Shown piece by piece: positions 2,596-33,117 of a stretch of 33,117 bases of DNA. A model generated the notes under the pieces. That model was given only the letters and a program-made list of their open reading frames with translations. It had not been told where the DNA came from and ran no database searches. Numbering within the stretch: the first letter of the stretch is position 1; the number at the start of each line of letters is the position of its first letter. The DNA is from Terfezia claveryi (Eukaryota > Ascomycota > Pezizomycetes > Pezizales > Pezizaceae): positions 1 through 33,117 of the forward strand of contig WHUX01000397.1 of NCBI GenBank assembly GCA_015179025.1, read 5' to 3'. Made by a program: the position numbers and the translations under genes.

Positions 2596-3269
2596 TGTAA
2601 CAACCATGTATTCAGTTGTCATCACCTGCGATCGCAAGTGATGGGTCATTGCCATTATTATCTTTGTTATCACTTGCGATTGTAGGTGATGGGTTATCAT
2701 TATTGTTGCCCTTAGCATCACCTGTAACGCAGGTGATGGGTTATTACCATTGTTGTCTTTGTCATCACCTGCAATCGCAGGTGATGGGTTATTGTTATCG
2801 TTACCTTACTTAGCTTCCGAGATAGGGAAGCTTATTTCCCCCATTGCCCTGACCGAGTTATGTATATATAGAGCCTGTCCCTCGTACTATCATTGGATCC
2901 CAATCTAATATCTTGTATATCCAATATAGGACCTTGCCTCTCCCAACGCTTGTGCACCTCCCTTGTGCACCCCCTTGTCTCGTGAACAGCTCTGCAGCAC
3001 AGCTGCCTCCCTCTGACACACACGGCAACTGCCTCCGCATGCCTCGTGCCCCTTGCCCTCTGCCTCTCTTGCCTCCTGCCCTTGCCCCCATCCCAGCCTT
3101 CCCCGGTCATACACGTAGTGTTCCTACATATGTGTTACCCTAGCTCTACCCTTACCTTACCCCTAGCCTTTCCCCAGATCACACACATAGCGCTCCTACG
3201 TGTGAGATTCCCCCGTGCCACTACCCCAGCGTACCTCTTGGTCGCCTTATCCCTAGAGCTATTGTTACA
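2596..3269 (+). repeat. 3' LTR of gypsy-2 (674 bp)
   Basis: It begins TGTAACA and ends TGTTACA, a perfect 7-bp inverted terminal repeat with TG...CA ends, after a polypurine tract and 140 bp past the pol stop. A TATA-like run (tatatata) is at 2863-2870. The first 200 bp hold four tandem palindromic units listed separately; the middle (2930-3240) is C-rich. The matching 5' LTR is not in the window. Confidence 0.8.
2621..2800 (+). repeat. Four tandem 47-48 bp palindrome-bearing units in the gypsy-2 LTR
   Basis: Near-palindromes of the type ATCACCTGCnATCGCAGGTGAT start at 2621, 2669, 2717 and 2764 (periods 48, 48, 47), each followed by gggtyatt and a T-rich spacer. The arms are inverted repeats of about 10 bp, so each unit can form a short hairpin or bind a dimeric protein. 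The position upstream of the LTR TATA box suits enhancer-like repeats; that role is inference. Confidence 0.8.
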
Positions 3270-5913: not shown

Positions 5914-8900
5914 TTATCCTATGATTAATTCTTTGAGATAGGAGAACCGTGGACTAGGAAAGGCCTTTGTACATATGTCTGCTGGATTGTGTTCACCAGG
6001 AATGTGCAAAAGCATGATAGTGCCAGAGTTAATGAGTTCGCAGACGAAGTGGTAAGCAATGTCAATATGCTTTGACTTATCGGAGATTCGAGGATTATGA
6101 GACAGGTCAATAGAGCCATTATTGTCACAAGAGAGGGCAGAGGGAATATTTTTGATAGAGAGCTCACTTAGCGTGTTCTGAAGCCAAATTTGTTGTTTAG
6201 CAGCAGTAGAACTAGCAATGTATTCCGCTTCGGTAGTGGAGGTTGTCACGCATTTTTGTTTTTGTGATCTCCAGCAGATAGTATAGGAGGTGAGCTTGAA
6301 GATATATTCTGAGGTCGACCGTCGAGTGTCACAACATCCAGCAAAGTCTGAATCAGTAAATCCTTCGAGTAAAAGAGGTTGTCCGAGTTTGTAGGTCAAG
6401 GTAAGATCGCAAGTACCCTTAAGGTAGCATAGGACTTGTTTAACTACTCCAAAATGATCCTTCGATGGTTTGTGAGAGAATTGTGAGAGAAGAGTTACAG
6501 AGTAAACCAGGTTAGGACGTGTTCCAATAACTGCATACATAAGTGATCCAAAGATTTGTTGATAGAGGGAGATGTTGGTAACCTTATCTTCATCTGTACA
6601 TTGTCGAAGAGTATGGTTTGAATCAAGAGGAAGAGTGACGGGGTTGCAGTCTATTATACTGAAACGTTCGAGGATCTTGTCGATGTAAGAGGATTGGGAT
6701 AAAGTGATACTGTTCTTAGAGTACTCAATTCGAATTCCTAGAAGCCAATGTAAATTACCCATATCAGTTAACTTAAACTCTCATTTGAGTAACTGTTTGG
6801 TAGACTTCATAATGGCTGAGTCTTTATATCCGAATAAAGTAATGTCATCGACATAAAAGGCGATAATGATTGTGCCAGACTTATGGACAAAGATGCAGGG
6901 GTCAAAGGCACAAGCAGAGAAACCTATTGTCAGGAGGAAAGATGTTAATTATCCATACCACTAATGAGGAGACTGCTTTAATCTATAAATAGATCAGTTA
7001 AGTTTAGCACACATGCCGTCAATCCGAGTGCCTTCCGGGAGTTGCATGTAGATAATTTCATTTAAAGAGCCGTAAAGGAAGGCTGCTTTGATATCCAGTT
7101 GTTGAGGTTCCCATTGGAAGTGAGCAGATAAAGCAATAAGGAGGCGGAGAGAGTCGTATCAGACAACAGGAGAGAATATTTCATCGAAGTCTGTGCCGGG
7201 TTGTTGAGAGAAACCTTGAGCAACTAGACGAGCCTTGTACCGATCAATATTCCCATTAGCATCTCGCTTAATCTTAAATACCCACTTGCTACCAATAATA
7301 TTCCTATCTTTGGTATTGGAACCACTTTCTAAACATCTTGATCCTTCATAGCTTCCAACTCATCGTTTATAGCCTTTCTCCATTTTTCTTCATCAGGTGA
7401 ATTAATAGCCTGTTTAAAGGTTCAAGGTTTATCACCATGTTGTAAGACTAAAGCGATCAATACTTTATCTTCCTCATTATCCTCATCAAAGACTTCAGGT
7501 GGGTCTTCGATTAATCTAGAATGACCATCAAACTGTATCTTTATACTGATTATGGAGATAATAGGAGCTTGTGTAGTTCCGAATTTTATTGGTTTAAAAA
7601 TAGCTCGACCTGCCTTGGTAATAGTTGTAGATCTAACTATTTTTCCACTAACGATTCGGGTGAAGTTTTCCATCATTGGAATTATCAGGTAAAGATTGTT
7701 GAAGGTTTTGAGGAAGTGAAGTAAGTGGTGAGTATTCATCTCGGTTCTGAGGTGGAGGAGGTAAGTGAACTTGTGGAGTTGGTTTGGATATTGGTCCAGG
7801 AGCTGGTGGAGGGGAAGATGACATTGCAGTTGATGTTGGTGGAATAGGTAGTGAGGAAGTAATTGAGTCCGATGTTGTTTCAGTCAGATGGGAAAGGGTC
7901 ATACTAGGGAACCATGCTTTATGAACGAGCAGGTGTCCCTTAAAATACTATTCTTCTGCTTGTTTTAGATTTCGTATACACCATTGTTGCCAGAGATATT
8001 CGTTTGGGAATTCTGAGCTAGTGTATGGGATTACTTCAAGTAGAGAAGTAGAAGGAGAAGCAGTATTTGTAGTTAGTGACCGTGACGGATTAGTTTAGTT
8101 AGATGTAGGTGGAGGTACCCCTTCTGGAGTTGTACTGGGTCTAAAAATGACATCTTGTGCTCGAACTGTATAAGTATGCTTTCTAGAAGGTATATGGAAC
8201 TTATAGATAGCTGTGCTATTAGTATAACCAATGAATATACCTTTCTCAGCCCGTGGTAGGAGTTTACTGCCTACAGGTCGTCGTTCCTCAGGTATGCATA
8301 TATAACATTCCTTACTAAAGGGTTGAAGGTGAGAGATAGTAGGTTTCTTGCCGTGAAAGACCTCGTAGGGAGTCTTCCCTTTGACAGCACTATGAGGTGA
8401 CCGATTTCAGAGATAGATCGAAGTTGAGCATGCTTCAGCCCAGAATCTTTTGTCCATATTTGTCAACATAGCCCTCATCATGTTCTGTATGGTTCGGTTG
8501 AAGCGTTCAGCTACACCATTAGATTTATGAGAGTAAGGGGGCGTTAGTTCATGTACGATACCTTTTGACTTAAAGAACTGTTCGAGATCTTTGTTAACAT
8601 ACTCTCTACCATTATCAGTACGAAACCATTTAACATGGTGTGATGTTTGCTTTTCAACCAAGGTAACAAAGTCTTGAATTGATTTGGTTGAGTTGGATTT
8701 CTGTTTAAGGAAGTAGACCCAAGAAGCACGAGAGTAGTCATCAATGAGTGTGATGAAGTAGGTTGCTCCACCAAAAGAGGGTATGGGGAGTTTACCGCTA
8801 AGAACTGAGTGAATAAGTTTGAGAATATTAGAGGCATAAGATGTTGTAGACTTAGGAACAGAGTGAGTAGATTTGGCGAGTATGCATGGCTCACAATGAT

Positions 8901-10384
8901 AGTTATCAGGGGGTATTGGAAGAATATCACCATCAGAGTAGAGTTCTTTATGCTTGAGGATAGTAATGGCTTAATAACCGAATGACTAATACCAGTGATC
9001 GATAGTTTTTCGAAATGAGGAAACGAATACCTTTTCATTTGACTCATTAATAAATGGGAGACTTCCAACAAATTCCACTATAAATAATACAGAATCATTG
9101 CCTTTCTTCATAACATGAAACCCAGAGTCCATAGAAAAAGTAGAAAGTTGAGATCGAACAGCATTCCAAGAAAACAGTAAGTGACCAAGAGAAGGAACAT
9201 ATCGAACATTGACAAGATGAACAATGGAAGTAGAGCCATTAGGAAGTAGACAGTTAAGAAGGACTCTCCCTTTTCCTTTAGCTTTGAGGAGATTATTGTC
9301 AGCTCCTTCTACAGTTCCACTATCCTTTGAAAAGTTCTCGAAGTGTCCTATGTCGTTGGTCATGTGAGCACTGCACACTGTATCGAATTTCCAGATGTTT
9401 TTTCACGATGGGTTACTGACGCTGAGAGCCTCATCCTTGGAGCTGCCAGAGCTGCCAATGATAAGTGCCTGTTCCTTCTTGTCTTCCTTCTTTTTATCCT
9501 TCTTCTTATCCTCGTTTGACTTCTTCAATCAACTTCTGGCATTTTTGCCATGTGTGACCTGTGTATTTGCTGAGTTGATGCTTCTTGCAATAGGTGCATT
9601 CCACATCGGAGTCCTTATTCTGTTGTTGTGATTGCTGCTGTTGAGGCTTGCCTTTCTTCTTGAAGGAGGTAGAGAGAGCAGTATCCCATTTTTCGATTTC
9701 AGAACCAACAGAAAGAAGTCATAATTTTGCATTAGTATATGTAAGGTCAGACTTAGTTGAGAGGTTGTCGACTATATTAGAGTGATGTTCAACGAGGAAG
9801 GAGAGGAGGATGTCCCTTTTGGCTTCTTCCTTATCAAGGAAAGTGTGGAGGGATTTGCGATATACATCTGAAGAGCCAGTGAGAGAGTAAAGTCGAGACC
9901 ACTCAGTCTCATATTGCTCAATAAAGTTAGTGAAGGAGGTAGTAGGAGTGTAGGTTGAGGCCAAGGTGAAGAGTATGCACAGTTGATGTACGAAAGAGAA
10001 TGGGGTATTACGGTAATACTGGTCTCTGAGATGAGTTCAGATTTCATGTAGTGAATTAAACTTTAAGATGACCTTCAGTATAGGTTTGCTGATAACCTGT
10101 ATTAGCATGAGAATAGCTTGATTTTCCATTGCTGCAAAGAGTTCTTTCTCTTCTTGTGTCGCATCTGTCGCAGGTTTAAGTCCTTCAATAACAAGTTCCT
10201 TACAACTCATACCTTTCATAATTATCTTAACAGTATGAGCCTAGTCTTTGTAGTTGTCTTAGCTGGTAAGCAACTTGATGTTGTCAAGTTTGACTGGAAT
10301 AGGCTTGAAGTCTTTCGGTGGTCGGAAGATAGAGGGTACAGCCTTTTCTTTACCACTAGAACCAGATCCTGAACTAGATGCCAT
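5914..10384 (-). pseudogene. Ty1/copia gag-pol polyprotein, decayed
   Basis: The start ATG is at 10384 (MASSSGSGSSGK), 78 bp inside the right LTR, and the stop is near 5914. Gag includes a zinc knuckle (CTYC...GHTWQKC, about 9530-9600). Protease-like sequence (FDTVCSAHMTND; the DTVC replaces D[ST]G) begins near 9390. The GAG-pre-integrase region is near 8930. The integrase core has FITLIDDYSR (about 8730), RTDNGREYVN (about 8620) and PPYSHKSNGVAER (about 8530). Reverse transcriptase has [10 protein letters not shown] (about 7370) and YVDDITLFG (about 6850); RNase H has DSDFAGCCDTRRSTSEY (about 6290-6350). Stops (TAA and TAG in gag near 10260 and 10240, and others) and a shift near 9520 between gag and protease show it is inactive. 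Order PR-INT-RT-RH is diagnostic for copia. Confidence 0.95.
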
Positions 10385-15508: not shown

Positions 15509-17370
15509 GACAAGCTGGTGGGCTACCGTTGGGACACCCGTCCTCCTGACGCTGTACCTCCCAAGTCCTTGCACCCTGACGCCTTCGCTGCCTCTAGGCA
15601 CCAGGTGTTCAGCTCCTCTGCATCAGGATGCCGGGCACCCACTACCCTACCTCTAAAGGCCAGCTGCCCACCTTCCCTGCCTCAGAGTACTAGATGTCTT
15701 ACTTCCTTGCCTTTGGGTGCCAGGCGTCCACCTTCCCTGCCTCTGTTGGCCAGGCCAAATATACCCCATGGGCTAAACCCAGCTCAGGAATACCTGCTGT
15801 GGTGGGCAGATTCAACCCCACCCATTACAAGAACCCTGGGTCCCCAACTATGCCTTAGTTATTGTGTTTAGAACAGGTTAGCCTTTAGCTTCTCTAAAAT
15901 ACAGGGCAGCCCTGTACTATCAAACGTACACATAACTGAGGGCGTACCTGCAAACAAGGATAATAAATGACAATTGTATTTAGAAATCTTTATATACATA
16001 AACACGCATCCTATCCACCTCCCCATGTGACTCGTCAACCTCAGCCCATACCACCTGCCCCCGATATAGACCCGTGGAGATAATTCAATAATGTCCTAGA
16101 CTTACTTCACTTCTGGCAAATATGGCTAATACTACGCATGGCGGTATATCGAAGCAAAGGGATAGTAGAGTTGATATCAGAGGCAAAGAATTAGCGAGTT
16201 CATTGGTGAGTTGAGAGGCAAGACATTGGTGACTTCAGAGGCAAGGCATTGGCGAGTTCAGAAGGCAAGGCATTGGCGAGTTCAGAGGCAAGACATTGGC
16301 GACTTTGGAGGCAAGGCATTGGCGACTTCATAGGCAAGGAATTGGTGACTCTGGAGGCAAGGCATTGGCAACTTTAAAGGCAAGGTATTGGCGACTTCGC
16401 AGGCAAGGTATTGGGGACTTCGCAAGGAAGGCATTGGCGACTTTGGAGGCAAGGCATGGGCGAGTTCAGAGCAAGGCATTAGTAACTCCAGAGGCAAGGC
16501 ATTAGCGACTTCAGAGGCAAGGCATTAGCAACTTTGCAGGCAAGGTATTAGGGACTTCGCAGACAAGGCATTGGCGACTTCGGAGGCAAAGCATTGTCGA
16601 GTTCAGAGGCAAGGCATTGGCGAGTTTGGAGGCAAGGTATTGGCAAGTTCGCAGGCAAGGCATTGGTGAGTTTAGAGGCAAGGCATTGATAACTTCGGAG
16701 GCAAGGCAGTCCTCATATTTGCTGTATAGCCTAGATAATTCCATCAAACCTGTCAGTTATGCTCGCACATCTCGGAAGCCTGCCAATGCTCTCACCTATA
16801 TCAGCTGAACTTACGCACTTGTTGGAAGAAACCTATGAGCTCAGTTAGCTGTGCCTACACATATTGGAGGCCTGGCAATGCTCTCACCTTTAACAACTGA
16901 ACTTGCTTGCTGGTAGAAGAACCATATTAGCTAGGTCAGCTATGCATGTATATATTGGAGGCCTAGCAGAGTGCTCTCATCTCGCTCATAGTTCTAGAGG
17001 TTTGTGGACTTGTGTTAGGGATAAAATCTAAATGCCATTGAAAATATTGAGAAGTGTGCCCACGCCAGCCGCCATATTATTGTAGTTGGGATGGCCGGGA
17101 AACTTGGCGTATGCTAATCCACTCAACTGGGTATGATCAACCCCTCTTGGCAGCCCGTGGCTCGGGAATGCCTGGTAACTCTAGCTAGTGTTGTCTCACA
17201 GCCAACCCAGTACTATGCCTATGCAGGCAATAGTCATATTTGGCTTCGTTATCCCAAAGCCTGCGTACTTTGGTAGGGACGGAGCTCCTCCATTCACCAG
17301 CTCCACATACTATGTCCTGTATTCTCCACGAGAAACTCATGCTTTTGAGGCACATATATATATATATATA
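15470..17370 (+). repeat. Left arm of the foldback element
   Basis: It pairs in inverted orientation with about 19290-21630. Landmarks are a C-rich outer part (ctgcctct, caggcgtcc; 15530-15760), a segment around 15970-16100, a 23-bp tandem array (16186-16712), a unique-looking part (16713-17300) and a final piece near 17368-17420 (gttctggtccgttccggga). Similarity is obvious by eye but broken by many transitions and small indels. Confidence 0.85.
16186..16712 (+). repeat. 23-bp tandem array, left arm
   Basis: About 22 copies of a unit like ggcaaggcattggcgacttc plus gga. The unit length is not a multiple of three, so open frames here are a by-product of the repeat. Confidence 0.9.
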
Positions 17371-17919
17371 TGTTCTGGTCCGTTCCGGGATTCTAGGCCA
17401 TACCGGTATGGACCGGGCTATTCCAAGATTGTCTGGGACATACCGGTATGGCCCCCATACCAGTATGGACTGGGAGGTTGCGAGATTGCAAGATTACTCA
17501 GGCCGTTCCGGGATGGCATAAATATTCATATCTTCTTATATTTCCTTACGCACACCCAACTTATTTGGCCTAACCAATGTAAATCATTTGATGCCATATT
17601 CTTAGATTCATGTCTACCTTAACCTCTACCCTTTATGCAGTCACCATCCTATTCCAAACTCCAATGCAAATGGTCTCCCAGCATATTCGCGCCCGTGCTA
17701 CCGCACTTGTTCTTGTAGTTCACCTGCATTATATATATTTTGAAATAATCCATTTTATTCTCACGATTATCTAATAAGGCTATCTAACATGCTGCGCTCC
17801 AAAAACCCCATCTGTACCAGCCTTCACATCCGTGTCCCTAGAATCCTAAATTCGCCGTCCATATGAGCCTGCAATTCACTGTCCATATTAACCTAGATAT
17901 CCGCTAGAATTGAGCAAGC

Positions 17920-18545
17920 AACTCAGCCTAGAATCGAGCGAGGAAATCAGCCTAGAATTAAGCGAGGAAATCAGTAGAGAATTGAGTAAGAATATCACCG
18001 AATCGAGCAAGGAAATCAGCCTTGAATCGAGCGAGCAAATTAGTATATAATCGAGGGAGCAAATCAGTATATAATCGAGCGAGCAAATCAGCATATAATT
18101 GAGCGAGCAAATCAGCATATAATCGAGCAAGCAAATCAGCATATAATCAAGTGAGCAAATCAGCATATAATCGAGCAAGCAAATCAGCCTAGAATCGAGA
18201 GAGCAAATCAGCATATAATCGAGGGAGCAAATCAGCATATAATCGAGCAAGCAAATCAGCATATAATCGAGCGAGCAAATCAGCATATAATCGAGCGAGG
18301 AAATCAGCCTAGAATCGAGGGAGCAAATCAGCATATAATCGAGCAAGCAAATCAGCATATAATCGAGGGAGCAAATCAGCATATAATCGAGGGAGCAAAT
18401 CAGCCTAGAATCAAGCAAGCAAACCAGCATACAATCGAGAGAGCAAATCAGCTAGAATTGGGCAAGCAAATCAGCGAGAAAATGAGCGAGCAAATGAGCG
18501 AGAAAATGAGCGAGCAAACCAGGTAGAATTGAGCGAGCAAATTTA
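17920..18545 (+). repeat. 24-bp tandem array in the foldback core
   Basis: About 25 copies of a unit like aatcgagcgagcaaatcagc plus atat. Some copies have cctag in place of atat, and degraded copies lie at both edges. The unit is a multiple of three, so the minus strand stays open for about 180 codons (MLICSLDY-like 8-residue repeat). I treat that as an artefact. No inverted partner array is seen. Confidence 0.9.
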
Positions 18546-19284
18546 TTTGGAAGGAATAAACAGGAGAAAAGCTCTAAGTCCCAGCTGGGCACACCTTGGA
18601 AATAGGGACTTGCCGTGTCTTGCCACTAGCCATTGGATCGACTGGCGCTGTCTTAAAACCAGATTACATGTCTTACCTACAATCATCCCGCTACGTCGGT
18701 TGGGGCTTCTCCTGCAATTGGCAAAACCTAGTACAAAGGAGGAAATACCCATATATGGGAAACGAATGAGAAGACAAACATATAGAAATGATGGCTTTTC
18801 GGCCTCTATATATGCATGCAATTCATGCTTCCGCTGGCTCTAGATAATGGTGTTTTGCATGCTTCCACTGGTGGTAAGAGTGTAATATTGTAGAGACCGG
18901 TAAGAGTGTAATTAAGCAAAACAATGGTTAAAACACTTGTGTTTGTTGCAAAGAAGTTATAGTATCGTGATCTTTAAAGGCTACTATTGCACATGCTACA
19001 ACCTCTTGTTCTTTGACCCAATATTTCTCTATATAATAACCTTCATTTCAGGTATACCTCTACTGAGTATTTTCTTCGATAGGTCACTTATGTTATCTCC
19101 AATGTTCTTTGACCAAATGTTGCTACAAAATTACCTTCATATCGGATATGTCCCTATTTAGTAGTTTTAATGTCACTGTGGCTACTGTGGTATTGTGGTA
19201 AATCCTTGTTGCTATCCGTGACATTAAACAATTTAATCCCGTAACGGCCTGGTCTGTTGCGATATCCAGCCATACCGTAACGGC
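18546..19284. other. Foldback core, no gene
   Basis: Mixed sequence between the 24-bp array and the right arm. I see no conserved protein and no long frame beyond about 100 codons. A single isolated TCCGTGACA occurs near 19216. Confidence 0.4.
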
Positions 19285-20394: not shown

Positions 20395-20883
20395 ACTTTG
20401 CCTCCGAAGTCGCCAATGCCTTGCCTCCGAACTCACCAATGCCTTGCCTACGAACTCGCCAATGCCTTGCCTCCAAACTCACCAATGCCTTGCCTCCGAA
20501 CTCGCCAATGCCTTGCCTCCGAAGTCGCCAATGCCTTGCCTGCGAAGTCTCTAATGCCTTGCCTATGAAGTCGCCAATGCCTTGCCTCCAAAGTCGCCAA
20601 TGCCTTGCCTCCGGAGTCGCCAATACCTTGCCTCTGAACTCGACAATGCCTTGCCTCTGAACTCGCCAATACCTTGCCTCCGAAGTCGCCAATACCTTGC
20701 CTGCGAAGTTCCTAATGCCTTGCCTCTGAACTCGCCAATGCCTTGCCTCCGAACTCGCCAATGCCTTGCCTCCGAAGTCGCCAATGCCTTGCCTGCGAAG
20801 TCCCCAATGCCTTGCCTATGAAGTCGCTAATGCCTTGCCTCCGATGTCGCCAATGAACTCGCCAATGCCTTGCCTCCGATATC
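20395..20883 (-). repeat. 23-bp tandem array, right arm
   Basis: About 21 copies of the reverse complement of the left-arm unit (gccaatgccttgcctccgaa plus gtc). Confidence 0.9.
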
Positions 20884-22432: not shown

Positions 22433-22580
22433 TAGTGTGCGCATCGGCTCGAGTCGAGGCGAGTTCTACTACTATTTTTCCTACTCGGTACCGACTCGCA
22501 CCGACGCCCATTCTTCCGAAGCCAACTCGCCGCCAACTCGGTGACTACTCGGTGATCGACCGAGTCCACACCAAGAATTA
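22433..22580 (+). mobile_element. Candidate left terminus of a hAT-type element
   Basis: Gypsy RT is cut after GGAATGGA (22425-22432). The new DNA begins TAGTGTGCGC, fitting the hAT terminus pattern YARNG. Subterminal DNA is full of ctcgg, actcg and gactcg words on both strands (ggctcgagtcgaggcgag, cctactcggtaccgactcgc), as expected for clustered transposase sites. The nearest coding is the 3' end of a hAT transposase. Neither the right terminus nor the second GGAATGGA next to gypsy sequence is in the window. Confidence 0.55.
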
Positions 22581-22628
22581 GTCACCTATGTTTCACCTCG
22601 ATCTTGGTTTCGTATTTTCTCCATTATC

Positions 22629-22789
22629 TGTCACGGATCGCTCCTCCTGTCATGGTTCCGTCCTCCTGTCACGAATCCGTCCTCCTGTCATGGATCCGTC
22701 CTCCTGTCACGGATCTGTCCTCCTGTCGCGGATCCGTCCTCCTGTCATGGATTGCCCCGCCTGTCACGGATTCCTCCTCCTGTCACGGA
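22629..22789 (+). repeat. TGTCACGGA array A, 19-bp unit, nine copies
   Basis: The cores start at 22629, 22648, 22667, 22686, 22705, 22724, 22743, 22762 and 22781, exactly 19 bp apart. Most units read cctcctgtcacggatccgt. Core variants are TGTCATGG, TGTCACGAA and TGTCGCGGA. The array lies between the candidate terminus and the 3' end of the transposase gene. Confidence 0.95.
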
Positions 22790-23349
22790 CTTGAACTTTT
22801 CCTTCCCACTCAATCCTTACCACCATTTCTCAACTGCGTTCTACTAGTGGCTAACCTTCCATCCATTCCCCCATCGTTCTCCTGTATAATCTTACCCTGC
22901 CTTGCGTGCTAATGTGAATTACATTCATTGATACCTTATCAATTTCTGTACACTCTAATTCTCATAAAATGAATCGCTTTAATTCTACAAACATAGAAAC
23001 CTAAACTAACCGACAAATTCCCTATACTCATGTCTAAACAAATCTCAATATCCCAAGATCGAGGTAAAGTAATTCTCCAATCCTGCTTATACTACCCTCT
23101 CACACAAAACCGGCCCTCCCACATACCATCAAAAAGAAAGCAAACTGAATCAAAAAGTAACTCCCAACAGAAATAGATAAAGAAATATTGCCTATGAAAT
23201 CCTCAAAACTCCAACTGTCCCATATAACAACTAAAATAGTAAACCTAAATGAAGAATGTACTCCCAACATAGAAAAGAAATTTTCCCTAGAACCTGCACT
23301 AATACTTACCTACCAGTATACCCCACATGCCATCAACACCCCTACCCAC
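22790..23349. other. No supported gene
   Basis: AT-rich DNA between array A and the transposase stop, probably its 3' flank. A frame at 23188-23421 overlaps the transposase C-terminus on the opposite strand and looks spurious. Confidence 0.4.
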
Positions 23350-24296
23350 TCATACTTTGTAGTTCCTACGCTGCATAGGTCGCAGTTTCTTCTGAAACTT
23401 GCTTGCCATCGACGGCGTTAGACTCACGGACTGTGATAAATAGTGCTTCTGGACGCTTCGATGCGGAGTTGAAGGAGATGGTGTTGCTGCATGCCTACAC
23501 AATAGACTTCGATGGAATGAGTTGGACATGCCTGAGGTAGAATCTTCCATGAAACTATACGATGGGCTGGCATTCTCGGATGCTAAATCTGCCAGGTCAT
23601 TTAGGAGGTACTCATCTATTATCCAGCTCCCAGCTACTTCCGTGTCACAATCTGTATCTGAATCCGTATCCGTCTGTCCCTGAACGGTATCTAGGGACTG
23701 TGCTACTATGCGGTGGAGGAAGTCTGCATCATAGCTAAGAGCTTGTTTCTCCAGCATTACCTCACCTTCATCCAAATCAGCTATGCCTTCTTCTACATGT
23801 GCTGGTCTAATTTGTGCCTCTAGGGTTCCGTATTTTGGGTGTACAGCATCCCACGATTTGGTCAACATCAGCCCAGTTATCATCTGGTGACCCATTCTGT
23901 TGCGTCAGTACGGCAAAATATCTTGAGCACTGCTGAATATTCGCTCTACTGAAATAAATGTGAGTAGAATGCTCAATATGTCCCTTGCCATTTATGCCAG
24001 CATAGGATATTCATTAGCATGCACCTTCCACCAGGATAGAGGGCATTTCTTATTCAGTGTTGTTACCGGATTCGCCAAGTATCTCTTGATTTCTGGCACA
24101 TCCTCCGATTGGCTTATGGTACACTCTTGTAGTCGACGCATTATATAGGATTGTTCTCCATCATCTACTTGTATGTTATGAACCTGGGCTTCTGGCGGGT
24201 ACTTGGTGTAATTATGTTCAAAATAATCTTCGAACTGAACCCTAAGAAGCGAATTTGGTAAGAATTATGTTTTTCTGTATATTACAGATGGTCTCC

Positions 24297-24384
24297 TGTC
24301 ATGGAAAATGGTGTCATGGAAAATGGTGTCATGGAAAATGGTGTCATGGAAAATGGTGTCACAGAAAATGGTGTCACGGAAAAC
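24297..24384 (+). repeat. TGTCACGGA array B, 15-bp unit, inside transposase intron 3
   Basis: Cores at 24297, 24312, 24327, 24342, 24357 and 24372, exactly 15 bp apart (tgtcatggaaaatgg). The first four have TGTCATGGA, the fifth TGTCACAGA and the sixth TGTCACGGA. In the inferred gene it is intronic (24242-24427) and antisense. Confidence 0.95.
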
Positions 24385-25076
24385 ACATGGGCCAAAATAG
24401 TCATGTGCTGATGGAATTCATACGTACTTGTAATACTCCGTGTATGAAATATAGTCCCCATTCTACTGTATACCACTTGGATCTTGGACATTGAGATTTC
24501 CCCAGTCGTTATACAAGGATAATTTCTTAGACGGATTAAGGATGGTTGCAAGGTTGTAGATGAGAGATTGTTTTTTGGTCCTAGAATAATACTTGATGAA
24601 GATCTGCTGACATGCTTTTGTCGTGGAGAGAAACCCTGGAGCCCAGGTAGGATTAGCTAGAAGTTTGCATATATGTTTCCTCTGTTTTTCTATGTGGTCG
24701 AAGATGTCATTGTAGATAAAGAACACATTCTGTATGGTCGTATGCTGCCCTATAGAGATAGCATGAGTGTAATCCGATAAAGGTTTCAGGAAAATAGTAG
24801 CCTCCTGAACTTGGTTCCACTCTTCTTGACTCAACCATAACTCTGAGTACTTGCTCTCTATCATAGATAGAGCGATCCATTGCTCAATGTAGCACTGGAG
24901 CCTCAATGCTCGAGTAAGCATTTCAAAGGTTGAGTTCCAGCGACTTTTGACGTCCTGGATGAGCCCCATGGGTGCATGGGAATCAGTTTAGAGTTCCTTG
25001 AATTGTGCCAGGCGTTGTGGGCTGGCTACTATAGCCTTACAGAGCTCTCGAACCTAGACAAATGTTAGCAATAGGA

Positions 25077-25126
25077 TTCCGTGACACATATTAGCCTTTC
25101 GTGACATGTCCGCCATTCCGTGACAT
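25077..25126 (-). repeat. TGTCACGGA array C, inside transposase intron 2
   Basis: Three minus-strand cores (TGTCACGGA, TGTCACGAA, TGTCACGGA) sit in the 103-bp intron (25054-25156), spaced about 18-22 bp, between the GTAAGT donor and the acceptor gtctag. Confidence 0.85.
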
Positions 25127-26492
25127 CTTTATTGAGTAGCTCAGAACATGACTTACTTTGTAAACAGATCGTGCGAATGTACCTGGAGCATAAATATGCA
25201 GTGCTCTGATTGAAGACTCAATAGCAGGGGTGAACGAGGCAGTATCATCATTATCTGGGTTCGACCTGAGTTCTTTCATAAACTGGTTGCTTACTAGCAC
25301 AATCACATGTGCAAGGCAGGGAAGTCGGTATTGCTAGGGGTCCTATTTAGCACCGAATACATTGGCTTGTAAATGCTTAGCCAATGCCGCATTGACACTC
25401 GCGTTGTCCGAAACGATGGCCAAGACTCGGTTCAAAATGCCATATTCCTGAATTAAATTCCCTAGCTGATTACCCAAGTGCATAGCATTATGAGCTTCCC
25501 CACCTAGGTACTGGAATCCAATTGTATGTTGGCACAGCTGCCAATCCTGGTCTATATATTGGAGTGTTGTGCCCATGAATGCTAACTTGTTCAGAGAAGT
25601 CCAACAGTCTGTAGCGAGGTGGAGGAATGTATCTTCTGGGAGGCTTTTTTGAAGCTTCTGTTGAACTTCAGTGGCATAGTGATGTATGCTCTGGCGAAGT
25701 GTTGTCGCACAGGGGATATTAATCCCAGATCTAAGAACTTTCAGCAGATACTAGAACTGCGGATGTTCGATGGTTCGGAAAGGTAAGTTTGTACCAATTA
25801 CAGTTTTCATGAGTTCATGTTTGAAGCGATCATTACTGAATTGCAATTCGGGGGATTGTACAACTGCAGGTGTTGTCTACTTGTAACATAAACCTATGCC
25901 CAATTATTGCAGGTAGGTACGAATTATATAATTACCTTCCCAAATAGGGTTGAAATGTCCTGATTCTTTCGCCCACTAGTAGAGCGGCACCTGCCTGAGC
26001 TAAGATGAGTTCTCATATGTGTCATACCCATATTAAAGGCACTAGGGTGTTGCAAGGTACCCTTGCAAGCTAAGCAAAATATGAATGGCTCACCGCTGTA
26101 AATCTTAGCCCCTTGTCCGAATTGGGCCCAGTGCGCTGCTGTTTGGAGCTTAGAATCCCATCGGGGTAAGTTAATATTATTACTTTTTAGATCTTTAGCC
26201 AGATTGTCACAGTGCTTGCCTGCCCACTCGGTCGTTTCCCACCATGCATCAAATGGCGCAGATTGTTTGGCTTCCCACTGGAAAGCTGTCCCGCCTAATA
26301 TTCTGGTGAGACTGGGAACCAATGGGCTCAATTGATGTACTAGCACACTTGGAGATAGAGACATGTTGGAGTATGGGGCTAGTAGTGCAAGTTCGTCTGG
26401 CTATTGTGTTCCTGGGAGTTGGTGATAATAGATTTAGAAGGGCAGTAGGGAAGAGAGGCCTATTTATTCACATTCTAAGGGCATTTGGAGTA

Positions 26493-26562
26493 TGTCACAG
26501 ATAACGTGTACTTGTCACGGATAATGTGTGCTTGTCACAGATAACGTGTGCTTGTTACAGAT
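26493..26562 (+). repeat. TGTCACGGA array D, 20-bp unit, four copies
   Basis: Cores at 26493, 26513, 26533 and 26553, exactly 20 bp apart (tgtcacagataacgtgtgct). Variants are TGTCACAGA, TGTCACGGA and TGTTACAGA. It lies between the transposase start (26364) and the end of the next minus-strand gene (26703), possibly in the transposase promoter. Confidence 0.95.
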
Positions 26563-26702
26563 TCTATGGGAGATATTCACAAGGTACCTGCGGCGCTTTC
26601 CTTGATAACCCAAACCTATCTATACATAAAATACGTCTATAAATCAAACCGTAGCATATCAACAGTGCGCCAAACCCAATTCCAATCCAAGCACGCGATC
26701 GT

Positions 26703-27532
26703 CTATTCCTTCCAAAATGGATCCACAATGTCATCGTGGACATCATTTGAGTCCTCTGACCTGTATGGTGAGAGCTCACTTCTAGGCTCAAAGCATCCAT
26801 CTGGCTCTGATATATTGTCAGGGATATTGGTTAAATCTAGTTGGAGTATGCTGGATCTCAATAGCCAATCGGGGCTGTCTGTGAGTTGCAAAATCTCGAG
26901 AGGTCTAGACATAATTAGCCTGCCGCGCTATCTATGTACAAGGATTAGTAAGATACCTTCTTAAAGGCCGAAGCCAGACCTCTTGCCCACAACATAATAC
27001 TGTTATCCTAGGTGGGGGATGCCATTGTACTGGTATATAGACAGGATGCCGAATGATTCTGCTGTCAGGGATCCGGTAGGTCTGGGCTTGTATCTACAAT
27101 AGGTATATTAGCACTCCAATGTTGTAACGCATACAATTAACTTACCGATAGGTATCGACAATCTTCACATAAACCCCATGCCTCTCCCTCGCCAGTTAGG
27201 TAATGGTGGAAAAGGGTAATCCACAACAAATCATATATAGTATAGTCATCTAGGTAAAAGGGATCCCAAGTTGTCTCTAGACTCTTGTAGATACCCAAGG
27301 GGAGCAGTAAATCATACCGATCAATCCAAATCCTCTCTAAAAGCTCCATGGCTACCACTCGGGATACAATCTTGTTGGGGTCAAATCGGTCCATAACCAA
27401 CTGTCTAGACTGGTGTGTTACTATTTCCGTTCCACGTAGACTAAGGAACCGTCATAGCCTAGCAGTGTCTCTCTACTGCTCCCGAAACTCTTCGAAACCA
27501 AGTTCATCTTCTGGATTGTGGTATACTGCCAT
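26703..27532 (-). pseudogene. Unrecognised three-exon gene (about 241 residues), two in-frame stops
   Basis: Start ATG 27532 (MAVYHNPEDELGFEEFREQ). Exons 27532-27146, 27093-26957 and 26904-26703 are joined by two introns of exactly 52 bp (27145-27094, GTAAGT...ttgtag; 26956-26905, GTATCT...gtctag), both with CTAAT-type branch sites. Both splices keep one frame. Exon 1 has TAG and TGA at codons 20 and 27, fitting CAG and CGA. The middle reads DRFDPNKIVSRVVAMELLER and DPFYLDDYTIYDLLWITLF, then CEDC; exon 2 is rich in Pro and aromatic residues; the C-terminus is acidic (YRSEDSNDVHDDIVDPFWKE). No domain is recognised. It lies just upstream of the transposase on the same strand. Confidence 0.65.
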
Positions 27533-29046
27533 ATTTGTGTAGTAGTCTGGTTGGTACAACGCCCGTTGTGAAGCTGATATAGTCAGTGAGAATTACAACC
27601 CTGATGAACTATATATAAGCAAAACTCCAGATGATAGTTCTGGAAAGAATCCCTAAATGGCAATGTCCTCTTTTGGTAGGTTGTCTAGTTACGTCTGATT
27701 CTGCCTTAGAATTAGTGGACAAAAGTAGACTACCCTACTCCACAGGTAATACTAATTGTATCTGAAGGACTTGGCTCATATTAGTCGTGGGAAAGACCTG
27801 CGTGACCCACCTGGGACACGGCAAAAGATCCATGACAACACATCTGTGACAAGACATCCGTGACAAAATAAGCCATCCGTGACAACATAAAATATCCGTG
27901 ACAAGAAAAAATATCTATGACTACATAGGTTTAGCACAAGCTACCCCGCCCAAATGGAACTACCATCCTGATCCACTCCAGCCTGGTGTTGAACCGCCAC
28001 CTTCATCCATAATAGTACCGCATCTATGAAAGCGATGGGTCGATGGCATTACAGCGATTGACCAGTCAATGGGATGGACTGGTTATTGTCAACCTATGTA
28101 GTTGAGGTCAAGGCTCGCACTGATACACTTTGTTGTATACTATAAGAGTTAGTTTAGCCAGTAGAAGGTAGGCTGGGTGAAGCGTTCTATCTGTCTCATA
28201 TGATAATGGTTAATACATTTTCTTAAAAGCTTCAGTAATCCTGATATAGTCTAGTCGTTCACATCCCATCGACCTATCAATTGCTCTACTAGCAATAATG
28301 TCGTTCTTCACTTGCAGAGGTATAGGTAGTCTGCTTGCATGAGCATTCTTGTGAGGTACAATGGGTCAAGGGGTCCGGGTCAAGCCAAGCCAGTTCTGAA
28401 ACAGGTGACACATACTTAGGGATGTCTCAGGGAGTAACCAGAGATGTTTTGGGGCAGTAGCTTGGGCCAGGGTCTGCTGGGGCCAGATAAATTCCCCGTA
28501 TCCCCACCTCCTACCACTCGATTAACTTCCGTCCTCCATTATTTGCATCTCCCTAGCCTTTTGTTATTCCGCATCAAGCCACCTCTTATCCTTTATTACT
28601 ATACCACAAGAAAGTATGCTAGCTAATTTGACTATCAGGCAAAGAGGTGAAATTCCAGGGTCAAGGTATGACTTCCATACTTTTTTACTTGCCCCATATT
28701 ATGTTGCATTCATGTCCCGTGTTATTTAAGTAAGTGCGATAGCCATGTGGGCTTGTCCCATTTTACGCAGTTCCACTGAACAGATGACGATTATCATTAT
28801 TTTCCTGTTACCTTGAGCGGGTCATGTTTGAAGCGCGTGGAAAACACACGTGCCGCAATGTCGTGTGGTTCCTCCCGCTGGAAACTGATCTGCGGTGAGG
28901 AACAGGAAAAGGACGTATAGCGGTATTGTGTGGTAACTCACACTTGATTTGACATGGTATTACTGGCTTGCAGCTAATTTCTTTTCACCCAAACTTCTAG
29001 TGATTATCAAACCCGATACTGAGTGCAAAATCAGACACATTGTCCA
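27533..29046. other. Intergenic, no supported gene
   Basis: Between a minus-strand and a plus-strand gene, so it may hold divergent promoters. Apart from TGTCACGGA array E, I see nothing conserved. A 60-codon frame near 28444 starts with a plausible ATG but shows no domain features. Confidence 0.4.
27829..27922 (-). repeat. TGTCACGGA array E, irregular unit
   Basis: Minus-strand cores (plus strand tccgtgaca or variants) at 27829, 27843, 27857, 27876, 27895 and 27914, spaced 14, 14, 19, 19 and 19 bp. Variants are tccatgaca, tctgtgaca and tctatgact. Confidence 0.9.
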
Positions 29047-29578
29047 ATGGTAGAGGTGCCAGCCACCCCTAGTGAAGCCGAAACTAAAGGAGATAATAAG
29101 AGGGGGGTTTTGCAGGAACTAGTGGTGGAGATGCAGGAGAACAATCCTAAGCCAGGGGTTGAAAACAAAGAGAATGAGAAGCCTCTCTTTGTTAGTCCAA
29201 GTCTCAGGCAATCCCCATACTTGCCATTTGAACATTCCCAACCTGAACAACCTTCCCCGTCATTTGACCCCCCCCGTTATTAACTCAAGAAGGGTAAGGT
29301 GGTCTCAAGAGCGGTCATCCCGGCGATGCCATGTTCACAAACAAAAGCGATGGCAAAGGCAGCAGGAAGCAGGAGCCATGGAGGAGGTCGCTGTGGGGGA
29401 AGTCTTACTATTGACATTGGGCCAGGCTCTTCTAATTTTTATTTTGGCCCGATATCATTCTATGTTAACCAAAATTAAACCACCAATATATTTATGCGTA
29501 GACTTGACTGCAGGTAAAATTCACAATGATGGGTACACGCATCGTGGTGATGCTAGTCACGTGCCTGTGTTTAGTTAA
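29047..29578 (+). pseudogene. Unrecognised small reading frame, shifted at a poly-C run
   Basis: A frame from ATG 29047 (MVEVPATPSEAETKGDNKRG) is rich in Glu, Pro, Asn and Ser and ends near 29283. The overlapping frame continues as basic sequence (NSRRVRWSQERSSRRCHVHK) to a stop at 29578, and includes a hydrophobic stretch (LLLTLGQALLIFILARY) that could be a membrane helix. The switch falls at gaccccccccgtt (about 29267-29279), a typical place for a one-base slip, so the two may be one former ORF; alternatively an intron is missed. No family is recognised. Confidence 0.35.
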
Positions 29579-29759
29579 TGGCATCCAGGTTTGCTTGTAA
29601 ACAAAGAATGAATTCCTTTATTTACACGAACAGAGGTTTTTGGTAGTCATCTTCTATTTATCTGCAAATTCCAAGGAATCGTCAGCGCTTCAATGGTGAT
29701 TTCTATCTATATAATCTGCAGTGAAGATAACGAAGAGGTATGTATTCCAAAGCCATATC

Positions 29760-29806
29760 ATGGAGGCCGTCACGGAGGATGTCACAGAGGCTGTGACGGA
29801 GGTCGT
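29760..29806 (+). repeat. TGTCACGGA array F1
   Basis: Cores read gtcacgga, tgtcacaga and, in the other orientation, tgtgacgga, with short ggnggy spacers. It lies upstream of the basic/acidic gene. Confidence 0.75.
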
Positions 29807-29923
29807 GTCCAGAAATTTGAAGTCGAATAATAGTTAGCTTATTCACTGACTATCATTTATCTCAATCACAGACATTCCCGTCTAAATAACTAGTAGAACT
29901 AAGACGTATGTTTTGCAAAATCG

Positions 29924-29969
29924 TGTCACGGAGGTTGTCATAGAGGTGTCACGGAGGTCATGTCAAGGG
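29924..29969 (+). repeat. TGTCACGGA array F2
   Basis: Cores TGTCACGGA (29924), TGTCATAGA, TGTCACGGA (29947) and TGTCAAGGG, spaced about 10-14 bp, 60 bp before the next gene's start. Confidence 0.8.
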
Positions 29970-30028
29970 AACAAGGTTGAGCCCAAAGTGGAAAGACTAC
30001 TGACAAAGTTTGTGATTAAGTATTCGCA

Positions 30029-31590
30029 ATGCCAAACCGTACTGAGAAGAAAAAGACAACTGGTAAAGCGCCAACCAGCCTGGCACCAGAACCTCCCATG
30101 CAGAAAAAAAGAAAGACAACCCTAGGAGCGCCAGCCAGCGCGGTCGCGAAGACGCCGACAACTCGCACAGAGCATGTTTCTAAAAAAAGGAAGACAAGAG
30201 CAGAATTAGCTCACCCAATTGAGGATGTTCCAAGAAGAAGGACCAGAGCCGAACTAGCCCTTATCCTACCCCCAGTTGAGGATGTTCCAACAAGGAGAAG
30301 GACAAGAGCCGAACTAGCCTTCTACCCACCCCCAATTGCAGATGTTCTAACAAGAAGCACGCCAAGAGCCGAACTTGCCGAGGATGTTCTAAAGAATCTT
30401 TATGCCAAATATGCCGACTTCTCATGGGGCCCTCGAGAGTTTAATCCAGACACAGAATTTAGTGGGGGGAGGAAGGCATGGGCCATCTCCACTAATTCCC
30501 ATACAAAAAAGATTCAAGAAACACACAAGAAACTGCTTGGAACCCCACTGTCGTAGGAGCGGGCCAAGGACTGGAAAAGGCAAAAGGTAAACAGGGTGTT
30601 CAAAGTAGGGATTAAGGAGGCCGAACACGCCACTACTACTGGAAGGGCAATAGGCATCCAAAGGGCCTCGTTAACTAATGTGGAACGAGGCAACTTTGAA
30701 TGACTGGTTCAAAGGACTTGCGACCTGATATTTATCCGCAAAAAGGCATATATTTTGTACCAGTGGCACCAGCTATCCAACGAGCAGAAGCGAGTCTATT
30801 TGGAATTATAGGAGCAAGAAGAGCTCCCCGAATTTAAAATTCCCAATGCTGAGTTGGAAGCAATAGAGGTAAAGCCAGTGCAGCAATTCGCAGTGGTCAT
30901 TAACGTTGTGCCAATCAATCGCCAAGCCTATGCCCGATTTGATGAGCCAACCGAACGTGACACAGTGTCTGGGCAGGGGACTAGTGATACAGGGCCCAAC
31001 ACACTACTAGCAATTGACAGCAGGATACAGACTATACAAGCGGAGTTGGCTGAGGAGGGTGCCGACGATTGTTTAAGTGATGAGGACATTGGAATGGATA
31101 TTGAAGAGGTAGGTGCTTCCTCGTGCTTGATCTAAATCTGAGAACTTTACTCACAAGTAGATAGGACTACGATGACAAACCCAACAAGCAAGATGATGAT
31201 GAAGATACAGGACTATGGGGCCGATGGGTAGCTTCGGAGGGTTCTTTAGAAGAAGAAGCTCAATCAACTGAATCCGACTCCAGGAAACGGGGAAAGGCAT
31301 TGTCAGTACCTAGCGGAGATAGGCCTGCCAAATTGCTTCCAAGCAACACCGAAGATGGGGACTATAGGGATTCTACTGAGGAGAACAATTGCAAAGTCAA
31401 TTAACGAGTATATCAGCGGATTTTACGTCAAGGTGCTGCGATGACAACAAGCGACAACAATAAAGATGACAAAGGCGAGAAGCAAGTCGCAGGCGATGAT
31501 GGGGGGAAAGATGAGCCAGCAGATAAGGATGAGGGTGAGTATGATGATGAAGGTGACAATTATAGTGAGGATGGGGAAGAAACAAACTAG
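30029..31590 (+). pseudogene. Basic/acidic nuclear-type protein with TRAELA repeats and a possible HMG-like segment
   Basis: Start ATG 30029 (MPNRTEKKKTTGKAP). Exon 1 runs to 31108; a 56-bp intron 31109-31164 (GTAGGT...agatag) joins in frame to exon 2, whose last stop is 31588-31590. Residues 1-60 are Lys-rich with several KKRKT nuclear-signal-like motifs. Residues about 58-115 hold four copies of a TRAELA motif with intervening EDVP. Residues about 245-275 (KKAYILYQWHQLSNEQKRVY) faintly resemble helices 2-3 of an HMG box; this is weak. The C-terminus is strongly acidic (DDDEDT, YDDEGDNYSEDGEE). Four in-frame stops (30554, near 30701, near 30808, near 31402) fit CAG, CGA, CAG and CAA. A chromatin or DNA-binding role is inference. 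Confidence 0.6.
31109..31164 (+). other. Intron of the basic/acidic gene
   Basis: GTAGGT donor after GAAGAG, gatctaaat branch-like site, acceptor agatag. Removal joins DIEE to DYDDKPNK in frame and opens a further 140 codons except one TAA. Confidence 0.7.
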
Positions 31591-31626
31591 GGAGGAGAAT
31601 GGGAACTAATTTGGATTTCTTTTTAG

Positions 31627-31690
31627 TGTCATGGATGGAAAACCTGTCATGGATAGAAAACATATCATGGATGGAAAACTTGTCATAGAT
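31627..31690 (+). repeat. TGTCACGGA array G, 18-bp unit, four copies
   Basis: Cores at 31627, 31645, 31663 and 31681, exactly 18 bp apart (tgtcatggatggaaaacc). All carry the T or A transition at the CpG. It lies 36 bp after the stop of the basic/acidic gene, probably in its 3' UTR. Confidence 0.95.
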
Positions 31691-32248
31691 GCCGTGAATG
31701 GTCGTTCGTTAACAATTTTCTGAGGTTCAATTGTATCTACTACTTTTGTGTTTGATTGTGTATTTTATTACGTCTTTGCTTGTATGTTTGTTGGATAACT
31801 ACAGCCTGAAGCAAGGGGTATTTCGTTTTTGTGTTGTTTTTGGATGTCTATGGCTTATGCGAGAGATATTTTCTTTGAGTATTTTTTTGATGTCAACTGA
31901 GCACGCAAAGGGTATTTGTTTTAGAATTATGTATATCTCTACGGGGTATTTCCTTGTGTGTTTTTTTGATATAAACAGGCTAATATGGCATAACACTAAG
32001 ATAACGTTTTTTTGTTACTCCCTTTGTTATGAGTGAGCTAATAGATGTAGATGCAGATAAACAATGAATTATACTTTATTGTAGAGCTCATTGCTTGAGA
32101 TCAGTCTATTTTTCATCTACTTCGTGCCCTCGAGAACATACATATACAAGCAAACTTAATGTCCCAAACCTCAGATCCTTCGATTTGCAACCTTCAGTCA
32201 GTGTGGATATTACACTTACTCTTTTGTACCCCCGAATACACAGATATA
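31691..32248. other. T-rich intergenic stretch with three degenerate repeats
   Basis: A roughly 58-bp motif (ggtattt... then gttttttgatg) recurs about three times between 31817 and 31980. Open frames here are driven by T-richness. The segment would contain the promoter of the H3-like gene. Confidence 0.45.
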
Positions 32249-32778
32249 ATGGCCGGAACGAAACAACGAGCTAGGAATGTCAAGACGATAGTACCCCCTA
32301 TGAGAGTACCTACAGTGGTCCCAAAAAAGAGAGGGGTACTCTCCAAAAAGAAAAGGGTACTCCCCAAAAGAAAAGGGTAGTCCCATGAAAGAGAAGGGTG
32401 GATCGGCGTAACAACTCCCCCCAGTTCAATTTGAACTTGAAATGCTAAGTTTGCTGTCAGTAGCAATTATTAGACAAATTCGGAGACAACAGGCCAGCAG
32501 TCAATTAATCATTCCAAAGACTGTGTTCCGACGGTTATGTCGAGAGATCGTACAGGATGTTAACACTGAATACAACAGTTATCCTACGATACTCGGTAGG
32601 CGAACAAATGTGAAGAGAATTGGTATCATAGCAACAAATGCCCTCCAAGAGGTTACGGAAGTATACCTCCATGAATTTTTGACAAGTAATAAAGCATATA
32701 TCGTGAGAAGGTCAGGGTGAGACTAACCAGGTGTATAAAATAGCAATCAACCTGTATGCAACACAGAGCGGAGACCGA
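32249..32778 (+). CDS. Divergent histone H3-like protein, split over three frames
   Basis: ATG 32249 opens MAGTKQRARN, matching the H3 start MARTKQTARK at seven of ten positions, then a Lys/Val/Pro tail (PKKRGVLSKKKRVLPKRKG) to a TAG at 32378. A second frame (open from 32412, ATG 32442) gives the H3 alphaN-alpha1 region: IRQIRRQQ, LIIPKTVFRRLCREIVQDV. Alpha2 is ATNALQEVTEVYLHEF. Alpha1 and alpha2 are joined by a loop 14 residues longer than in H3. A third frame (32743-32778) gives AINLYATQSGDR, aligning with DIQLARRIRGER of alpha3. An intron from 32377 to 32449 would join tail to fold in frame, but its acceptor is weak, and no good intron explains the last shift, so it may be a pseudogene. 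The position of H3 K9 is Asn here; K4 is kept. It could be a CENP-A-like or mobile-element H3 variant. Confidence 0.7.
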
Positions 32779-32899
32779 AACCCACCACGCCAAACAATTC
32801 TACGAAGGGATGTGTGTTGTGCGTCAGGTGGAAGCCAATCGGCTATCTGGGGGTAATGTGACCTACCGCCCCACCCCAAGCACCACCAGTACTACCATT

Positions 32900-32990
32900 G
32901 CCCTCATCATCCTCCTCATCATCCTCCTCATCATCCTCCTCATCATCACCGTCGTTACCATCATCACCCTCATCATCATCATCATCATTC
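32900..32990 (+). repeat. CATCATCCTCCT microsatellite
   Basis: A 12-bp unit (ctcatcatcctc) repeats about four times, then decays into catcat runs. On the minus strand it encodes an Asp/Glu-rich stretch, so an acidic minus-strand protein is possible but has no other support. Confidence 0.85.
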
Positions 32991-33014
32991 ATCGTCTTCA
33001 CCGTCACCATCAGT

Positions 33015-33117
33015 TTCGCGTCGACTAGATCACCGGCATCAGTTGGTGCCCGCCATCTCTGCAATCCTCCTTCGCCGGCATAGTTGTGCCCCAATCTCCT
33101 GCAACACTCCTTCGCCG
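33015..33117 (+). repeat. 41-bp tandem repeat, at least two copies, running off the edge
   Basis: Segments ending ctccttcgccg (about 33065-33075 and 33107-33117) are preceded by related sequence (rttgtgccccaatctcctgcaa against gttggtgcccgccatctctgcaa). The array may continue beyond the window. Confidence 0.65.

Follow-up and report, generated by a model that had tools for sequence, protein, structure and literature searches.

Tandem arrays of a family-specific nine-base core in a hAT transposon of Terfezia claveryi: predicted docking sites for an element-encoded protein

The window described here is a stretch of 33,117 nucleotides of the desert truffle Terfezia claveryi (Ascomycota, Pezizaceae; GenBank assembly GCA_015179025.1, contig WHUX01000397.1, positions 1–33,117 of the forward strand), and its right-hand part (22433–33117) belongs to a single hAT DNA transposon copy whose left end is exact and whose right end is lost at the contig end. 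A CCT5 protein encoded in the genome shares 99% identity with its Terfezia boudieri counterpart. Eight tandem arrays in this copy, each with its own spacers, are built around one nine-base core, TGTCACGGA. In more distant hAT families of the same genome the core is a different word, and core and transposase diverge together. Comparison of these families suggests that a DNA-binding protein of the element, most likely its hAT transposase, docks at the arrays, a prediction to which we assign a probability of about one half. If true, such sites would help the element to move or to stay active.

The arrays surround the genes of the element, which are a minus-strand hAT transposase of four exons (26364–23353), genes 2 and 3, and a histone H3-like gene 4. 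Array A1 (22628–22789, plus strand, 19-bp unit) is subterminal, inside the left end. A2 (24297–24383, plus, 15-bp unit) lies in transposase intron 3, antisense to the gene, and A3 (25078–25125, minus, 19-bp unit) in intron 2, in the sense direction. A4 (26493–26562, plus, 20-bp unit) stands upstream of the transposase start in the predicted promoter, and A5 (27828–27925, minus, 14- and 19-bp units) upstream of gene 2. Gene 3 is preceded by A6 (29758–29802, plus, 12-bp unit) and, directly before its start, by A7 (29923–29958, plus, ~11-bp unit), and is followed by A8 (31627–31691, plus, 18-bp unit). Coordinates are from Tandem Repeats Finder, with core matches used as well for A6 and A7, except that A3 was delimited from minus-strand core matches. 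All eight arrays lie at the positions given in a first-pass annotation of the window, which had assigned them, in both orientations, to two transposase introns, gene flanks, a possible promoter and a 3' UTR. As corrections to it, all three cores of A6 are one-mismatch variants and the core spacing of A7 is irregular. None of the eight arrays overlaps a mapped coding piece, these pieces covering 43% of the element part of the window in a coding map that is incomplete, for example at the end of gene 3.

Counted with up to one mismatch, TGTCACGGA has 38 matches in the window against 3.9 expected, the largest count in 100 shuffles being 10, and 35 of the 38 fall within the 10,685 bases of 22433–33117. 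The annotation had seen a single isolated match to the left of the element, near 19216; this match was located (19215–19223, minus strand), and three matches at this threshold lie in 1–22432. The 72.6-Mb genome contains 2,136 exact copies of TGTCACGGA versus 500 of the reversed word, and 865 pairs of cores 1–30 bases apart versus 1 for the reversed core, while an unrelated word forms 1 pair and its reverse 2. A chance origin was rejected on the shuffles, the reversed-word counts and the pair controls. When 15 distinct arrays were aligned on the core, the flanking columns carried at most 0.46 bits of information; the core itself was the selection rule of this alignment. Spacers are unrelated between arrays and also between subfamilies at one and the same slot, on which ground a single ancestral satellite was rejected; the earlier proposal of local re-amplification around a retained site fits better. 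An Rfam search gave nothing above cut-offs.

Copies of the element elsewhere in the genome define its ends. In 20 of 20 aligned loci, the window copy (locus L009; C and L numbers denote contigs and loci) included, the element starts with TAGTRTR at the same base after flanks that differ, and the place near 22433 where the annotation had seen the arrays stop is accordingly the end of the element. The left terminal inverted repeat, TAGTGTGCGCATCGG (22433–22447, plus strand), is shared among copies and answers to a right end of the form ...GTGCGTACACTA in a sister copy. On contig C25 a sister copy spanning ~11,798 bases, an insertion of ~0.25 kb included, has matching inverted ends and the 8-bp target duplication GTCATCAA on both sides. 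No target duplication was found for the pair L014/L041 on C171, which may be two different copies. Short inverted ends, an 8-bp target duplication and a dimerization region in the transposase place the element in the hAT superfamily. By comparison with sister copy L039, ~0.9 kb of the right part is absent from the window copy. The right ends of three sister copies carry a second A1-like array in the same direction together with one or two minus-strand cores. As a separate observation, ~295 bases of the left subterminal region (window 22689–22983) recur near the right end of L039 (4135–4428), in the same direction.

The DNA of 22433–28000 has 37 matches in the genome, the window included, and the eleven other full-length copies are 90–94% identical to it. 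Arrays were compared in the window and 27 of 29 other loci (excluding L037 and L038; L033 and L035 are fragments of a single interrupted copy, as are L032 and L036, and these copies are counted twice in places). Sites were recovered in 22 sequences for A1, 27 for A2, 28 for A3, 21 for A4 and 19 for A5, again with the window, and every recovered site carries repeat units, some of them decayed; the remaining sites are cut off or interrupted. Copies of the element lacking the arrays, which the annotation had named as an outcome that would speak against it, were therefore not what we found. Array length varies between copies (41–87 bp for A2, 48–124 bp for A3). With up to two mismatches allowed, 538 instances of the core were counted, 243 of them exact. 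C to T and G to A account for 341 of the 379 changes to the core, including 219 at its CpG; the count at position 8 is inflated by one A3 unit that reads TGTCACGAA or similar in most copies. Because such changes dominate, the variants TGTCATGGA and TGTCACAGA are best read as probable decay products of TGTCACGGA, by methylation or repeat-induced point mutation.

A subfamily on contig C21 keeps the core and its slots and has replaced the spacers. Its transposase exon 2 is 79% identical to that of L010, with proportions of synonymous and nonsynonymous differences (pS and pN) of 0.64 and 0.11, and at such a pS neutral DNA should hardly align any more. The C21 arrays lie in the promoter (19 bp, antisense), in intron 2 (17/18 bp, sense) and in intron 3 (18 bp, antisense), that is, in the slots and orientations of the window, and share TGTCACGGA with spacers unrelated to those of the window. 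Of the 16 matches to TGTCAYRGA in this copy (L046), all exact, 15 belong to these arrays and the last falls in exon 1. On C16 a further such element carries a left array with 19-bp units, and a predicted intron of its H3-like gene contains a 12-bp array; the same intron array is present in C21.

In a family on contig C27, whose transposase exon 2 is 43% identical over 226 codons with a pS of 0.83, the core itself has changed. Its arrays, with units of 13, 12, 17 and 12 bp, carry TGTCACGGG or CGTCACGGG in strongly decayed form. Of the two 12-bp arrays, one is antisense between transposase exons 3 and 4, matching the window, and the other follows gene 3 in the sense direction; the 17-bp array lies upstream of the transposase, also antisense. 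On C245 a decayed array, again antisense, occupies the transposase intron that holds the C27 array. Genome-wide, TCACGGG forms 35 pairs 3–16 bases apart against 6 in the control, and 16 of the 35 have C27-type spacers, on contigs C27, C46, C90, C148, C572, C601 and C667, of which C27, C90, C572 and C667 also carry transposase matches of 34–40% within ~9 kb. The C12 family is more distant still (29% identity in transposase exon 2). Its hAT (L045, C12:107300–111300) is ~2.9 kb long with ends set by eye, only a transposase gene was seen in it, and the arrays near both ends of this family have a core of their own, GCCTGAATA. Pairs of GCCTGAATA number 211 versus 0 genome-wide and are found again on C56 and C215, next to transposases of the C12 group. 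Clusters of GCCTGAATA next to which no transposase is listed (e.g., C32:91472 and C75:21265) may be deleted derivatives.

That the core differs by transposase family, with slots and orientation kept, fits a site read by a protein of the element better than it fits a satellite. The transposase is our preferred candidate for the reader, since only a transposase gene was seen in the C12 family, which nevertheless carries a core of its own. The transposase zinc finger would read the core; at the arrays near the ends the reader would assemble the transposition complex, and at the promoter and intron arrays the same protein may keep the non-coding DNA of the element active against host silencing, perhaps by recruiting the element's own H3-like histone and the gene 3 product. 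Slippage would lengthen and shorten the arrays, and the spacers would drift while selection acting on site number preserves the core. An extended version, in which an element protein reads the family-specific 9-bp arrays and deposits the element-encoded H3 variant there, giving each family a private, self-addressed open domain convergent with the VANDAL/VANC system of Arabidopsis but equipped with a nucleosome component of its own, strikes us as unlikely.

The docking-site reading was also weighed against the distribution of the core outside the element. The annotation had asked whether equivalent arrays occur in unrelated single-copy DNA; of seven distinct places with exact matches outside the element that were fetched from the 1.13-Mb contig C1, six are single matches, so that arrays as an ordinary property of single-copy DNA were not seen in this small sample. 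The 100 core pairs listed of the 865 (contigs C1–C32 only) were grouped by hand into 17 clusters, of which 13 belong to hATs of this kind and four do not. Eight of the 13 lie within ~7 kb of a transposase match, four have the A1 spacer and one (C16) has a hAT left end; the clusters on C8, C13 and C20 and at C21:144811, which have only A1-type units, were assigned from their listed spacers alone.

Several results weigh against the proposed role, or against the transposase as its agent. Three of the four remaining clusters, of 2–3 cores each (C1:932402, C2:135584 and C10:147895), lie in another repeat family, and the core pair at C4:14423 lies in DNA without an assigned element. Of the TCACGGG pairs, 19 of 35 are of another kind, nine belonging to one other repeated sequence (TCACGGGGAT...ATCACGGG) and ten being scattered, and a different repeat accounts for at least seven of the GCCTGAATA pairs listed. 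No array is present in the 48-bp intron 2 of C27, a decayed 34% relative on C143 has no core array in the 4 kb read, and the relatives on C223 and C379 each show a single strong array, built on other words. Genes 2, 3 and 4 are also common to the C27 family, so the reader is not singled out, and Pfam calls no BED domain in the transposase, either in the window or in a joined sister protein. Finally, a single-sequence AlphaFold model of the H3-like open reading frame (ORF) was too poor to be informative, with a predicted local distance difference test (pLDDT) score of 60.9 and no histone among its 22 PDB matches (best E 1.5). One stretch in intron 3 of C143 resembles CCCGTGACA by eye and was rejected as a decayed core, being too weak to count. 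The other repeat family (L007, L049, L052 and window 2753–3269) has small irregular TGTCACGGA clusters on C1, C2 and C10; its window copy at 2753–3269 has none.

Among the other explanations, the arrays could be subterminal repeats of the usual hAT type, needed for transposition and nothing else, with those in the interior being spill-over that has no job of its own. Arrays do lie near both ends in the window family and in the C12 family, where no gene other than the transposase was seen, and the BED domains of Hermes bind subterminal repeats (PMC10368747). Between families with synonymous sites at or near saturation, however, spill-over would not keep internal arrays in the same slots and orientation, and we consider this explanation possible, if on the unlikely side. 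The gene 3 protein is a serious rival to the transposase for the role of reader: a VANC-like protein of gene 3 (or gene 2) would bind the core and remove silencing, with the H3-like protein as effector. Gene 3 is common to the C27 family and has homologues among the proteins of Terfezia claveryi, Terfezia boudieri and Tirmania nivea, and the VANDAL pattern matches closely (PMC5735166, PMC10398659). Against it, the C12 family has its own core near its ends with only a transposase gene seen in 2.9 kb, and gene 3 has no recognized domain; this anti-silencing scheme carries the same minor likelihood as spill-over.

Two further explanations place the cause outside the element's own proteins. If the core were the site of a host factor, exploited by the elements or used by the host against them, its presence in clusters in one other repeat family would be accounted for, but a single host factor would favor one core and the core shifts with transposase family within one genome; we regard this as improbable. 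Neutral minisatellites, arising by slippage at a mutation-prone word and without function, would account for the free variation in unit number between copies and for the decay of the core by C to T changes in older copies. Yet core, slot and orientation stay as spacers get replaced, and the control words hardly pair (1 for the reversed core, 1 for the unrelated word, 2 for its reverse), which makes a purely neutral origin very improbable.

VANDAL transposons are of the Mutator-like class. Two reports on them in Arabidopsis describe a short motif, nine bases long in VANDAL21, repeated in tandem in a single orientation within introns and upstream of genes, a repeat number that varies between copies, motifs that differ between related families, and the presence of the VANC6 motif in an unrelated element as well; VANC binding and loss of methylation were demonstrated there (PMC5735166, PMC10398659). 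The Terfezia element likewise has short-motif tandem arrays in non-coding regions and a motif that diverges between related families (TGTCACGGA versus TGTCACGGG). Unlike VANDALs, it lies outside the VANDAL group, with the transposase, ends and target duplication of a hAT and a fungal host, and has arrays near its ends and an H3-like gene in addition. The same array pattern in another superfamily and another kingdom, with the core co-diverging within one genome, suggests convergent evolution with VANDALs, from which sequence-specific anti-silencing by transposons has been described (PMC5735166, PMC10398659). It also supplies a matched set that can be tested directly, namely two related proteins and two cores that differ by one base. 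Hermes shares with the Terfezia element a hAT transposase and repeated short sites inside the terminal repeats, several near each end (PMC10368747), whereas the Terfezia sites are 9 bp long, are arrayed regularly and occur across the element, in introns and upstream of genes as well, A2–A8 being internal.

A histone-bearing hAT has a precedent in Pseudocercospora fijiensis (Dothideomycetes), where elements of 9.5–9.9 kb have one or two H3-like sequences and 8-bp target duplications, and the H3 in such fungal hATs is presented as a captured housekeeping gene (PMC6710886). The Terfezia hAT agrees with it in the H3-like sequence and the 8-bp duplication; its H3-like sequence is far from canonical H3, has an open frame in many copies and is present in two families 43% alike in transposase exon 2. 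It is possible instead that the H3-like gene does work for the element, in which case the other fungal hATs would have to be read differently. A literature search with the core as text gave nothing relevant among the matches listed, and searches on Terfezia transposons, fungal anti-silencing, fungal hAT repeats and transposon histones gave no other description of such arrays among the matches listed, a weak absence.

The transposase is encoded on the minus strand in exons 1 (25936–26364), 2 (25157–25876), 3 (24427–25053) and 4 (23353–24240). Exon 1 contains a BED-like C-x2-C...H-x3-H zinc-ligand spacing, and the C-x2-C and histidine positions align with relatives that retain the N-terminal region. 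The C-terminal dimerization region is in exon 4; for Dimer_Tnp_hAT (PF05699), the joined sister protein passes the cut-off with E 3.6e-21, and the ORF piece of the window itself, at E 0.0059, falls short of it. The nearest named relatives outside this genome are fungal and ~30% identical. Gene 2 (26706–27553, minus strand, pieces 27553–27140 and 26927–26706) encodes an unknown protein with a homologue in the C27 family; it lies on the transposase strand in the window, and in the C27 family (L042 5846–6437) it points away from the transposase. Gene 3 (pieces within 30029–30973, plus strand) encodes an unknown basic/acidic protein and is broken in the window copy.

Gene 4 (32249–32720, plus strand) is H3-like, with a predicted tail MAGTKQRARNV at 32249–32377 that resembles the start of H3 itself and a histone fold in the ORF at 32412–32720, the joining of the two being predicted. 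PF00125 matches the fold at E 6.9e-8 in the window ORF, 7.2e-11 in C21 and 1.3e-8 in C27. A profile of four sequences, two of them close relatives, matches solved H3 chains (E 4.8e-12) with an insertion at the position of the first H3 loop; a single-sequence search of solved structures found no match, a poor negative, as the first 14 residues of its query came from the wrong frame. The fold part has 105 genome matches of 41–100% identity, many without stops, a few of which may be host histones. Against C21, the gene has a pN of 0.29 and a saturated pS of 0.79, which suggests that protein change is held back.

The relative on C379 has a 9-bp unit, CTGGTCGGA, repeated ~23 times (L048 409–619) upstream of another hAT transposase. 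To the left of the element, the window has pieces of a Copia-type retrotransposon (5914–9402, minus strand; RVT_2, integrase core and Pol_BBD). A 23-bp unit there forms two large, oppositely oriented arrays, at 16201–16708 and 20398–20855 (CATTGGCGACTTCAGAGGCAAGG and nearly its reverse complement), and between these lies an array of 24-bp units (17908–18542).

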